A stretch of DNA of 64,000 nt, from the NCBI GenBank assembly GCA_029212925.1, contig JARGOB010000009.1, forward strand, positions 1 through 64,000. The letters are read 5' to 3'. A program made the translations under genes and the position numbers. The stretch comes from Coxiellaceae bacterium (GTDB lineage: Bacteria > Pseudomonadota > Gammaproteobacteria > Coxiellales > Coxiellaceae). A model generated the notes under the pieces. It did not search any database, was not told the origin of the DNA, and saw only the letters and a program-made list of their open reading frames with translations. Position 1 is the first letter of the stretch; each line of letters opens with the position of its first letter. Shown one piece after another: positions 61 through 51,986 of this stretch.

Positions 61-2355
61 TCATGCCGCCGCAAGATTATCTCGCTTGGCACGTAATTGC
101 TTAGCAGCGGACACCAAATTAGTTAATGCCGCTTTTACTTCAGGCCATGCGCGAGTTTTTAATCCACAATCCGGATTCACCCACAGCCGCTCTGTAGGCA
201 CATACTGTTCAGCCTTATCCAATAACTGACAAATCTCTTCAGTGGCTGGTACACGTGGCGAATGAATATCATACACCCCCGGCCCAATTTCATTGGGGTA
301 AGCGAAGGTGTCAAATGCTTTGAGCAATTCCATATCCGAACGCGAACTCTCTAAAGTAATAACGTCTGCATCCAAATCAGCAATGGAAGAGATGATGTCA
401 TTGAATTCTGAATAACACATATGGGTATGTATTTGCGTCTCATCCTTAACACCACTGGAACTTAAACGAAAACACGCGGTTGCCCAGCTCAAATAAGCCT
501 GCCAATCAGCTTGACGCAAAGGCAGCAGCTCTCGAAATGCTGGCTCATCGATTTGGATAACTTGTAGGCTTGCCGCCTCAAGATCAGTGACCTCATCGCG
601 TAATGCCAAAGCAATTTGGCGTGCCGTATCGCTTTCGGGTTGATCATCACGCACAAAAGACCACGCCAAAATAGTAACCGGCCCAGTTAACATTGCCTTA
701 ACTGGCTTGCCGGTTAACGACTGCGCATACTGACTCCAAGCGACCGTCATTGCATGCTTACGACTAACATCACCATAAATAACCGGTGGTTTAACGCAAC
801 GCGAACCATAGCTCTGCACCCAGCCGTATTGTGTAAAGGCAAAGCCATCTAAGTGTTCAGCAAAGTGCTCCACCATATCATTGCGCTCTGCCTCGCCATG
901 CACCAATACATCAAGGCCTAATGACTCCTGCTCTTTGATGTCCGCCGCAATATGTTGCTTTATTCTCTCATCGTATTGTTTTTGTGATAGCTCACCTTTT
1001 TTATAGTCTCTACGTAAAAGTCGTATTTCATTGGTTTGTGGAAAAGAACCAATGGTTGTCGTTGGCAATAAGGGTAATTTTAGTTTTTCACGCTGCTTAT
1101 CTGCGCGTTGTTGATACGGTTGTGTGCGATGATAAAATCGACTGGTGATTTGCGCTAATTTTTCAGTAATGCTTGGATTATGTATACGTGAAGATTGATG
1201 CCTGCTATCAACCGCCGCTTGGTTAATAGCCAGCTGATCTGCTATTGCCGGCTTACCCTCACCTAAGCCTTTTGCTAATAAAACGAGCTCATTGAGTTTC
1301 TGTTTCGCAAATGCTAACCAACTTTTGATTTCTTTATCCAAGTGATTTTCTAGCTCGAGATCAATTGGACAATGCAATAACGAGCAACTAGGCCCTATCC
1401 ATAAACGCTCACCAAATTTCTGCTTAATAGGAATTAACTGATTAATGAGCGCATTTAAATCAGCACGCCAAATATTCCGGCCATCAATCGCACCCACTGA
1501 TAGAATTTTATTTTGGGGCAATACGTTGACTATTTTTTCAAGCTCGTCGGCACCACGGCAAGCATCAATATGCAAACCTGCCACTGGTAACTTAGTAACC
1601 CAATCCAAATTATCTTTTAGCGGCCCAAAGTAAGTAGCTAACAAGCACTTAGTACCGTTGATATTTAAATCTTGATAACAATCAATCGCTGCTTGCTGCC
1701 ACTCTTTAGGTAAATCTAAAACAAACGCCGGCTCATCCAGCTGCACCCACTCAACACCAAGCTCATGCAAAATCAATAACACTTGTTGGTATACACATTT
1801 TAACCGCGACAATAAATTCAGTTTTTCTACATCGTCCTTTGCTTTGCTAAGCCATAGCAACGAAATAGGGCCCAATAGCGTAGGCTTTGGTTTATAGCCC
1901 AGCTCAATTGCCTGCCTCACTTCGCTAAATAATTTTCGATCGATAATCTCGAAGCGGGTATCTTCAGTCAACTCAGGCACAATATAATGATAATTAGTAT
2001 CAAACCACTTAGTCATCTCACATGCCGGCGCATCTAAACCATTCGGCGCTTTACCACGCGCCATGCAAAAATAGGTATTAATATCATAATTCAATTGCTG
2101 CTGCTTGAAGCGCTCAGGAATAATGCCAAATAAAGCTGCCGTATCCAGCACATGGTCATACCACGAAAAATCGCCGACCGATACAAAACCCAAGCCTGCG
2201 TCTTGCTGCCATTGCCAATGTTTTCTTTTAATCTCAGATCCGATTTCTTGTAGTTCCGTATAGCTAATACCACTCTTCCAGTAGGCTTCTTGTGCTTTTT
2301 TAATTTCGCGATGCGAACCAATGCGAGGGAAGCCTAAAATATGTGTTGTTGTCAT
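61..2355 (-). CDS. metE: Cobalamin-independent methionine synthase MetE
   Basis: Transfers the methyl group of 5-methyl-tetrahydropteroyltriglutamate to homocysteine, the last step of methionine synthesis, without B12. The 764 residues match the usual length. The N-terminus has the family opening HILGFPRIG. The C-terminal half carries the zinc-site motifs (HTHMCYSEF and NPDCGLKTR) and the block after TTTIGSFPQT. The ATG at 2355 is chosen over an upstream in-frame TTG because AAGGAT lies 8 nt before it. The gene is monocistronic, behind a leader with a riboswitch-like fold and a terminator. A B12-dependent MetH is also present at 48.3 kb. Identification is firm. Confidence 0.97.
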   Translation of the reverse strand: MTTTHILGFPRIGSHREIKKAQEAYWKSGISYTELQEIGSEIKRKHWQWQQDAGLGFVSVGDFSWYDHVLDTAALFGIIPERFKQQQLNYDINTYFCMARGKAPNGLDAPACEMTKWFDTNYHYIVPELTEDTRFEIIDRKLFSEVRQAIELGYKPKPTLLGPISLLWLSKAKDDVEKLNLLSRLKCVYQQVLLILHELGVEWVQLDEPAFVLDLPKEWQQAAIDCYQDLNINGTKCLLATYFGPLKDNLDWVTKLPVAGLHIDACRGADELEKIVNVLPQNKILSVGAIDGRNIWRADLNALINQLIPIKQKFGERLWIGPSCSLLHCPIDLELENHLDKEIKSWLAFAKQKLNELVLLAKGLGEGKPAIADQLAINQAAVDSRHQSSRIHNPSITEKLAQITSRFYHRTQPYQQRADKQREKLKLPLLPTTTIGSFPQTNEIRLLRRDYKKGELSQKQYDERIKQHIAADIKEQESLGLDVLVHGEAERNDMVEHFAEHLDGFAFTQYGWVQSYGSRCVKPPVIYGDVSRKHAMTVAWSQYAQSLTGKPVKAMLTGPVTILAWSFVRDDQPESDTARQIALALRDEVTDLEAASLQVIQIDEPAFRELLPLRQADWQAYLSWATACFRLSSSGVKDETQIHTHMCYSEFNDIISSIADLDADVITLESSRSDMELLKAFDTFAYPNEIGPGVYDIHSPRVPATEEICQLLDKAEQYVPTERLWVNPDCGLKTRAWPEVKAALTNLVSAAKQLRAKRDNLAAA

Positions 2356-2430
2356 TTGTAATATCCTTATCTTCAAAATTTAAATAAGGCTAAAGTGGTT
2401 AGGATAAGGGCAGAGTGAAGTAGCAGACAT

Positions 2431-2461
2431 AAAAAAACCACCTCACTAAAGCCATGGTGGT
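2431..2461 (-). terminator. Rho-independent attenuator in the metE leader
   Basis: On the minus strand ACCACC and GGTGGT (2456-2461 and 2437-2442) form a hairpin followed by seven T, about 80 nt before the metE ATG. The hairpin loop contains GCTTTAG (2446-2452). This is fully complementary to CTAAAGC at 2472-2478, which overlaps the conserved AGCTAAAG of the aptamer. The two pairings exclude each other, giving a simple terminator/antiterminator switch. Confidence 0.8.
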
Positions 2462-2463
2462 CA

Positions 2464-2524
2464 TCCCAATCGCTTTAGCTGTTTATTTTACATGCCCAGC
2501 AAGCTGACGAGTCAAATCGGCATG
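2464..2524 (-). promoter_or_regulatory. Putative SAM-II-like riboswitch aptamer in the metE leader
   Basis: On the minus strand a CATGCC/GGCATG stem (2519-2524 with 2491-2496) closes a loop that begins GATTTGA. It is followed by AAATAAA and then AGCTAAAG. This order, P1 stem with GATTTAA-type loop then ATAAA then AGCTAAA, is the signature of SAM-II pseudoknot aptamers. Loop TCGT can pair with GCGA just after AGCTAAA, giving a possible second helix. SAM-II is known mainly from alphaproteobacteria upstream of methionine genes. The call is by eye; a covariance-model search (Rfam SAM-II) would decide it. Confidence 0.65.
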
Positions 2525-2542
2525 AGGTTTTATACTAGCGCA

Positions 2543-48308: not shown

Positions 48309-51300
48309 ATGCGTAAACAAATCGAACAAGCACTACAAGAAAACATCATGGTCCTCGATGGCGGCATGGGAACACTGATCCAAACCTACGAACTGCAGGA
48401 AAAAGATTTTCGTGCTGAGCAATTTAAAGACCATGACCACCCGCTTAACGGTAATAATGACCTATTGTCTTTAACTCAGCCCGATATTATTCGCGCAATA
48501 CACTGTGCGTATCTTGAGGCTGGTGCTGACTTTATCGAAACCAACACCTTTAATGCTAACCCTATTTCACAACTGGACTATCAGTTACAAGACTATGCTT
48601 ATGAGCTCAATGTCGCCAGTGCAAAAATAGCTAGGTCAGCCGCTGATGAATTTACTAAAAAAACGGGTCAACAACGCTACGTCGTGGGCACTATTGGCCC
48701 AACTAATAGAACAGCAACCATTTCACCTGATGTTAATGACCCAGGATGTCGTAACGTCACATTTGATGAACTGGTCGATGCCTATACCATTTGCATTAAA
48801 GGATTAATCGATGGTGGTGCTGATATCTTAATGGTTGAGACTATTTTCGATACGCTCAATGCCAAAGCGGCCCTCTATGCCATTCAGCAATACTTTGACG
48901 AACACGATGTAAAAAAACCGATAATGATTTCCGGCACAATTACTGATGCCAGTGGTCGCACATTGTCGGGCCAAACAATTAGCGCTTTTTGGAACTCGGT
49001 TAAGCATGTTAAACCTTTAACCATAGGCATTAACTGTGCACTCGGTGCAGCAGATATGCGGCCTTATATTCAAGAACTCTCCGAGATTGCTGATACTTAT
49101 ATATGTGCATACCCCAATGCTGGACAGCCAAATGAATTCGGTGAATACGACGAAACGCCCGAACATATGGCTGGCCTAGTTAAAGATTTTGCGGCCAGCG
49201 GCTTCGTCAATATTGTTGGCGGCTGTTGTGGCACCACCGCTCAGCATATAAAGGCTATAAAAGAAGCCGTGAGTGATTGTCCCGCTAGAGAAATTCCAAA
49301 CATCGAGCCTTTATGCCGGTTAAGTGGTTTAGAAACATTAGAAATTCGTGAGGACACTAACTTTATCAATGTCGGTGAGCGAACAAACGTCGCCGGGTCA
49401 GCACGTTTTGCAAAGCTTGTGCGCAATGGTGAATTTGAAACAGCGCTCGATGTCGCTTTACAGCAAGTCGAAAACGGCGCACAAATTATCGATATCAATG
49501 TAGATGATGCCATGCTGGATGGCGTGCATGTAATGCGCCAATTTTTAAATCTTGTGGCGAGTGAACCCAATATCAGCCGCGTACCGATCATGATTGACTC
49601 CTCTAAGTGGGAAATCTTAGAAGCTGGCTTAAAGTGTGTGCAAGGCAAGTGTATTGTTAACTCAATTAGCCTTAAAGAAGGCGAAGATGAGTTTATAAAA
49701 TATGCTAAAGCTTGTTTACGCTATGGGGCCGCTGTTGTCGTAATGGCGTTCGATGAAACGGGGCAAGCCGACACCAAAGCACGAAAAATCGAAATCTGTT
49801 CTCGTGCGTACAAAATATTAATTGATCTGGGCTTTGCGGCGCATGATATTATTTTTGATCCCAATATTTTTGCAGTAGCTACCGGTATTGAAGAACATAA
49901 CCCTTATGCCAAAGACTTTATTGAAGCCACAGCAGAAATAAAAAAGCAATGCCCTGGCACTTTAATCAGTGGTGGTGTGAGTAATGTGTCGTTTTCATTC
50001 CGCGGTAACAACCCTGTGCGTGAAGCCATGCATGCGGTGTTTTTATACTATGCCATTAAAGCTGGCATGGATATGGGGATTGTTAATGCCGGTCAATTAC
50101 AAATCTATGAAGAAATACCACAAGAACTGCGTGATTGCTGCGAAGATGTGATCTTAAATCGTCGCGAGGATGCCACTGATAACCTGTTAGAAATGTCAGA
50201 AAACTATAAAGGTGAAGGCAAAAAACGCGTAAAAGATTTAAGTTGGCGCGAAAATGATGTGGGTAAGCGCCTAACACACTCCCTGGTTAATGGCATTACC
50301 GAATACATTGAAGAAGATACCGAAGAAGCGCGCCTTGGCTTTGATAAGGCACTAGAAGTGATTGAGGGTCCATTGATGGACGGCATGAATGTCGTCGGTG
50401 ATTTATTTGGCGATGGCAAAATGTTTTTACCGCAAGTGGTAAAAAGTGCACGCGTCATGAAAAAAGCGGTTGCTTATTTAATGCCATTTATCGAACAAGA
50501 AAAAACAAAGAAATCAGACATTGCTGATAGCTTTAAAGGTACCGTGTTAATGGCCACTGTTAAAGGTGATGTACATGATATTGGTAAAAACATTGTTGGC
50601 GTTATTATGCAGTGCAATGGATATCGAGTGATTGACCTTGGTGTGATGGTGCCTTGTGAAAAAATCTTGTCCACAGCACGTCAAGAAAAAGTGGATGTCA
50701 TTGGGTTGAGTGGATTAATCACCCCATCACTGGATGAGATGGTGCATGTAGCAAAAGAAATGCAACGCTTAGACTTTAAGTTACCTTTATTAATTGGTGG
50801 CGCAACAACTTCTCGCGTACATACGGCAGTTAAAGTTGATCACCACTATGATGGCCCCGTCCTATACGTTAAAGACGCATCGCGCAGTGTTCCAGCACTG
50901 TCTAAACTGCTGGGAAACAATAAAACAAGCGAAGTTGCCGCTATCAAAAAAGAATATGATGAAGTGCGCATAAACCATCAAGGCCGCAAAGCAAACACCA
51001 ACTGGTTAACTTTAGAAGAAGCGCGCGCCAACAAGCCACAATTTGATTGGCAAAACTATCAGCCACCCATTCCTCAGTTTTTAGGCACTAAAATTATTGA
51101 CGACTTTGATCTCAACACATTAATACAATGTATTGATTGGTCGCCGTTCTTTCGCGCTTGGGGTTTAATCGGCAAGTTCCCTGATATTCTCGACGATGCG
51201 AAATATGGTGAACAAGCGCGTGCAATCTATGAAGACGCTAAAACCATGCTGGCGGAAATTGTTGAAAAAAAACTACTAAAGGCGAAGGGCATGGTTGCTT

Positions 51301-51986
51301 TCTTCCCTGCCAATAGTGCTAACAGTGATGATATCGAATTGTATACTGATGAAACGCGTACTGAAGTGCTTAAAACCATGCACCACTTGCGCCAACAAAA
51401 TCGCAAACCACCCGGCAAAACCAACAAAGCATTGTCTGATTATATTGCACCGAAAGAAACGGATATTGCTGATTATATCGGTGCGTTTGTAGTTACCGCC
51501 GGCATTGGTATGAACCAGCTAACAAAAGAGTATGAAAAAAACAATGATGATTACAGCAGCATTATGATGAAAGCTTTGGGCGATCGTTTGGCCGAAGCTG
51601 CAGCAGAATACTTGCATAAATGTGTGCGCAAAGATTATTGGGGTTATGCAAAAGATGAAAGCTTAGATAACACTCAACTGATCAAGGAGCAATACCGTGG
51701 TATTCGTCCAGCTCCTGGCTATCCCGCTTGTCCCGACCACTCAGAAAAAGAAATTTTATTTAATCTGCTCGACCCTATGAATAATATTGGTGTGCACCTA
51801 ACTGAAAGCATGGCGATGTGGCCAGCTTCATCCGTATGTGGTTTTTATTATTCACACCCCGAGTCAGATTACTTTGTCGTGGGTAAAATTAACGACAACC
51901 AATTGGTTGATTATGCTGAGCGTAAAGAAATGGACCGTGAAACCACTGCATTGTGGTTACAACCTATTCTCGAGCTGGAGCAGTAA
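48309..51986 (+). CDS. metH: Cobalamin-dependent methionine synthase MetH
   Basis: 1225 residues with all four modules in order: homocysteine-binding ([11 protein letters not shown]; zinc cysteines including GGCCGTT), pterin-binding ([14 protein letters not shown]), cobalamin-binding ([21 protein letters not shown], with DxHxxG) and the SAM reactivation domain ([14 protein letters not shown]). It transfers methyl from methyl-THF to homocysteine through B12. GGGAGA precedes the ATG. No B12 riboswitch is seen upstream. Confidence 0.98.

Follow-up and report, generated by a model that had tools for sequence, protein, structure and literature searches.

What controls metE in this member of the Coxiellaceae, and whether its leader could be a riboswitch that acts on transcription, are questions raised by a short intergenic stretch on the minus strand of the 64,000-nucleotide region of DNA that we analysed (the window). 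The stretch lies between the cysQ stop codon (2543) and the start of metE at ATG 2355, which we used in place of the upstream TTG 2376 found in a mechanical list of open reading frames. Upstream of metE on the same strand are cysQ and then a bifunctional sat/cysC gene. An earlier note on this DNA, made from the letters alone, had stated that metH is present alongside metE, and we located it in the same window (48309-51986). No MetJ was found in the genome, the assembly of which is ~92% complete; this completeness bounds the absence of MetJ as well as that of a cobalamin riboswitch, given below.

The earlier note had described a SAM-II-like leader in front of metE and had suggested a covariance-model search as a check. 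We ran this search, and the leader passed: RF00521 (SAM_alpha, the SAM-II aptamer) matched positions 2533 to 2454 of the minus strand with 43.4 bits, which exceeds its gathering score (36). The match covers the full model (1-79/79), with an E value of 1.8e-6 when the window was searched against all of Rfam and 2.1e-8 for a genome-scale search with RF00521. It is the single match above a curated threshold for the whole window against Rfam, and the sole RF00521 match in the 3.26-Mb genome. All of the leader elements that the note had listed were present on the minus strand where they had been placed. The coordinates of the features are collected in the table. In a promoter scan of the leader no candidate reached threshold, and the promoter is weak by consensus.

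Table. Features of the metE leader and gene, with window coordinates and the evidence for each.
Feature	Position	Strand	Evidence
metE, cobalamin-independent methionine synthase, 764 aa from ATG 2355	61..2355	minus	NF003556 1151 bits, TIGR01371 1088 bits, both above cut-off
metE Shine-Dalgarno AAGGA	2364..2368	minus	sequence; kept in two same-genus genomes
Intrinsic terminator, ACCACC/GGUGGU stem then U7	2431..2461	minus	sequence; MFE -11.7 kcal/mol with pseudoknot strand blocked
GCUUUAGU, antiterminator 3' strand, inside terminator loop	2445..2452	minus	8 bp with 2479-2472, z -5.26
SAM-II aptamer, full-length RF00521 match	2454..2533	minus	43.4 bits, GA 36
GCUAAAGC, P2 3' strand, alternatively antiterminator 5' strand	2472..2479	minus	GCTAAA invariant
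AGCTAAAGC	2480-2472	minus	sequence
P1 3' strand GGCAUG	2491..2496	minus	covariation over 46 sequences
Conserved loop GAUUUGA...CAGCUUGC, holds pseudoknot P2 5' strand	2499..2518	minus	GATTTGA, CTTGC (near-)invariant, 46 sequences
CAGCTTGC	2506-2499	minus	sequence
GATTTGA	2518-2512	minus	sequence
P1 5' strand CAUGCC	2519..2524	minus	6/6 pairs with two-sided changes, 96.4% of cells paired, 46 sequences
Possible -10 box TATAAA	2529..2534	minus	read from sequence; start site would fall near P1

Across 46 aligned aptamers, GATTTGA, CTTGC (bar one position) and GCTAAA were invariant or nearly so, and the binding core (GAUUUGA, CUUGC, the A-rich linker and GCUAAAG) was conserved, the window included. 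Every pair of P1 (2524-2519 with 2496-2491) had changed on both sides, giving 37 doubly changed cells compared with 12.4 in shuffles and 1-7 in slid controls. For P2, four inner pairs are possible in the window and the outer pairs are weak; over the 46 sequences the outer pairs were often non-standard, and no covariation of P2 pairs was seen, the inner columns varying so little that they are uninformative on this point. The location of the aptamer, 5' of a methionine gene, also fits membership of the class. The metE leader is thus very probably a SAM-II riboswitch and a putative SAM sensor, and by analogy with other members of the class its RNA would bind SAM.

Of 112 genomes sampled, 33 had a match to RF00521 at E <= 0.001; the three genomes of the window's own genus are all among them, and most of the 33 belong to other families of the same class. 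Only 11 of the 112 were above the Rfam cut-off, so annotation at the gathering score misses most SAM-II loci. Within the window's family, 15 of 36 genomes had a match at E <= 0.01. Among the matches listed by a pattern search of GTDB, this core recurred in alpha-, beta- and gammaproteobacteria, along with a few records from Bacteroidota and elsewhere. The remark in the earlier note that SAM-II is known mainly outside the gammaproteobacteria consequently needs qualifying, given its presence in these 33 relatives, mostly of the same class, and gammaproteobacterial reports that go back to 2005-2007 (PMC1273637, PMC2258182).

The aptamer is followed by an intrinsic terminator, with arms ACCACC (2461-2456) and GGTGGT (2442-2437) and a T7 run at 2437-2431 on the minus strand; both same-genus genomes have one as well. 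CTAAAGC in the aptamer core (2478-2472) had been reported to be fully complementary to GCTTTAG in the terminator loop (2452-2446). This is correct, and one added G-U pair extends the helix to 8 bp between GCUAAAGC and GCUUUAGU. The pairing stands out from dinucleotide-shuffled terminator segments (z -5.26), and it reached p<0.05 in 17 of 24 terminator-bearing loci from the window and same-class relatives (mean z -3.1). Mean z was -2.1 in named gammaproteobacteria, -1.2 in betaproteobacteria and -1.2 in the few alphaproteobacteria with a close terminator. CTTTAG occurred in 17 of 35 SAM-II terminators (the window and same-class relatives plus named gammaproteobacteria) versus 1 of 241 unrelated terminators, for which the Fisher value of 1.4e-16 overstates independence because the species share ancestry, though the sample spans many families. 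A chance match between terminator and antiterminator was rejected on the basis of the shuffles and the 241 unrelated terminators.

We folded the segment from the pseudoknot strand to the U-tract with that strand either free or blocked. With the strand free, the antiterminator formed (-14.3 kcal/mol); with it blocked, the terminator formed (-11.7 kcal/mol). The same folding gave -14.6 and -10.2 for the two same-genus species, and the flip from antiterminator to terminator on blocking the pseudoknot strand was seen in all three genomes of the genus. In some relatives (L013, L020 and L022 are examples) the terminator was preferred even when the strand had been left free; the equilibrium view does not, therefore, cover every leader, and in these cases kinetics must play a part. 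The minimum free energy of the full 113-nt leader was no more stable than that of shuffles (z -0.46), a value that is uninformative because pseudoknots lie outside the folding model. Computationally, the leader contains an attenuation platform, a terminator and a mutually exclusive antiterminator that is built with a strand of the aptamer. Conservation of the pairing in related genomes had been named as a further check; both the pairing and the proposed terminator/antiterminator logic hold within the genus and recur in many other families.

We consider it highly likely that the metE leader is a SAM-II riboswitch working as a transcriptional OFF switch. In plentiful SAM, the nascent RNA would form P1 and the P2 pseudoknot around SAM, thereby sequestering GCUAAAGC (2479-2472). 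With this strand tied up, the ACCACC/GGUGGU hairpin and its U7 would form, and transcription would stop at about 2431, upstream of metE, leaving the gene off. When SAM is scarce, GCUAAAGC would pair with GCUUUAGU (2452-2445), so that the terminator is opened and metE is transcribed. Computation supports the identity of the aptamer and of the gene, the covariation of P1, the terminator, and the mutually exclusive pairing together with its conservation, whereas we infer the ligand, the co-transcriptional timing and the effect on metE in vivo by analogy with the SAM-II family. The failure to find MetJ or a cobalamin riboswitch in the genome also speaks for this reading. Points against it are the weak outer pairs and missing covariation of P2, the weak promoter, the unremarkable stability of the whole leader (in a model blind to pseudoknots) and the absence of a terminator from metE leaders of more distant family members.

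The region 3' of the terminator has features of its own. A 23-nt block, ATCCTAACCACTTTAGCCTTATT (2405-2383, minus strand), does not vary among three species of the genus (permutation P 0.0003). Its possible pairing partners are the Shine-Dalgarno region of metE (ATAAGG, 2370-2365), the 3' arm of the terminator and GCTAAAG of the aptamer. We rejected a genomic repeat, since the block gave one match at up to 3 mismatches and is thus single copy. Directly after the U-run is a short ORF (MSATSLCPYPNHFSLI followed by a stop; 2430-2380 of the window, minus strand), for which AGGTGG in the terminator arm is a possible Shine-Dalgarno sequence; in the sister locus L002, the short leader ORF extends into the metE start and overlaps it. 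In the window (2430-2411) and in L011, L021, L023, L024, L027 and L028, the sequence after the U-run is complementary to the terminator 3' arm. Such complementarity at z<-2 was found for 16 of 87 SAM-II and 10 of 246 other terminators, with the whole distributions alike (p 0.16). That the metE leader of this genus carries a post-terminator layer of control, with one SAM-II aptamer governing translation as well as transcription, is a conceivable arrangement that we regard as doubtful.

It is improbable that SAM-II acts chiefly on metE translation and that the terminator is constitutive. This has been proposed for the S. meliloti metA leader, in which the terminator 3' of SAM-II is predicted to be unaffected by SAM (PMC9373788), and the metE Shine-Dalgarno sequence does sit in a possible hairpin. 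However, that sequence lies ~100 nt beyond the aptamer, and the terminator loop holds an exact antiterminator partner that is strongly enriched across relatives.

Genes 3' of SAM-II in relatives were metE, metN, metZ, metK or metF-like. Within the family, metE is intact in the window's own genus and in G012 and G028, and each of these leaders has a SAM-II core. In G028 the leader (L162) has a core with an unusually short linker, lacks a terminator and is not called by RF00521; its expression platform must differ from that of the window. Four genomes of genus g6 contain metE remnants riddled with stops. Three of these four small-genome relatives (L018, L032 and L033, from G023, G007 and G033) keep the SAM-II core upstream of the remnants, without a terminator; the terminator is missing from the metE leaders of these three and of L162, all more distant members of the family. 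Elsewhere in the family SAM-II precedes genes for metN-like ATPases, which we identified by reading the sequences. The SAM-II loci of the family look like one methionine regulon.

The decayed metE copies that follow the g6 aptamers indicate that aptamers can outlive their function, and by the same token the aptamer of the window could be a degenerate one that no longer senses SAM, its terminator a leftover or a separator of cysQ and metE. We think this very improbable, because metE is intact in the window, and because three species of the genus have retained the aptamer together with its two alternative helices while the remainder of the leader has drifted.

Other aptamer models gave nothing comparable. 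The long-loop SAM-II model RF01726 was rejected with 14.9 bits against a cut-off of 44, and no second aptamer besides SAM-II was found here. Searches for the cobalamin riboswitch (RF00174) had no match in the genome at E 0.001 or in the leader at E up to 10, and on these grounds cobalamin control of metE was rejected. A different SAM-class or B12-class riboswitch that merely resembles SAM-II is barely credible: SAM-V shares the fold type and related pseudoknots have been described (PMC6061858, PMC9481103), but RF00521 alone reached its cut-off in the leader, the SAM-V, SAM-I and cobalamin models were unmatched there at E up to 10, and the genome is without a detected cobalamin riboswitch.

SAM-II was described in 2005 as the metA motif, in a paper that gave many putative terminators and named Coxiella burnetii in its list of organisms (Corbino et al., PMC1273637); the riboswitch binds SAM and is often found ahead of a terminator (PMC1273637, PMC2258182). 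By 2007 it had been reported in gammaproteobacteria, with terminators commonest in alpha- and betaproteobacteria (PMC2258182). Neither the occurrence of SAM-II in gammaproteobacteria nor its combination with terminators is therefore new to the literature. The metE leader shares with the metA motif/RF00521 (PMC1273637) the P1 stem, the conserved loop, the A-rich linker, the GCUAAAG pseudoknot strand, a methionine gene 3' of the aptamer and a downstream terminator; it differs in its metE target and its short, lower-GC P1 (CAUGCC/GGCAUG), and its P2 lacks the long GC extension of the alphaproteobacterial SAM-II model. The SAM-II of S. meliloti metZ, which has a predicted transcription terminator and yields a riboswitch sRNA, similarly has behind it a Rho-independent terminator that is predicted to fold once SAM is bound (PMC9373788), but it comes from an alphaproteobacterium, precedes metZ and, unlike the metE leader, has been studied in vivo. 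We found no report of SAM-II before metE or metN in the literature searched, most subscription papers being outside that search. The metE leader is very probably an ordinary member of SAM-II, although few examples of the class are on record for this lineage or this gene.

The comparison also touches two catalogue entries. At four Paraburkholderia loci (L083, L091, L100 and L107), RF02424 (Bp2_287, a Burkholderia 'sRNA'; 112-158 bits) is called on the strand opposite the SAM-II core. In L100 and L107 the core precedes metZ. Reverse-complemented, the RF02424 consensus includes GATTTGAT..AGCTTGCGGACGC...GCTAAAGCG, so the family seems to be a SAM-II leader, with a GGG-GCAA-CCC insert in its linker, whose model was built from the wrong strand. 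The second entry is the metXZ element of betaproteobacteria, which Leyn et al. 2014 (PMC4239095) presented as new and without an assigned ligand. By that description, on which our comparison is based, it resembles the metE leader in having a pseudoknot, a terminator/antiterminator and methionine genes, and it is probably SAM-II. The betaproteobacterial loci L041, L053, L072, L078, L096 and L099 score above the RF00521 cut-off, and most of them lie ahead of metX or metZ, in agreement with the account of metXZ. Corrections to both entries are thus pointed to.

The 2014 regulon survey reported SAM_alpha from Rhizobiales and Rhodobacterales only, with metY, metA, metX, metC, hom and metW as targets (PMC4239095). 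Beyond these two alphaproteobacterial orders, our comparison shows that SAM-II leaders with a conserved CUUUAG antiterminator occur widely in the window's own class. In a lineage without detected MetJ, our results place metE and, in relatives, the metN importer gene under predicted SAM-II control.
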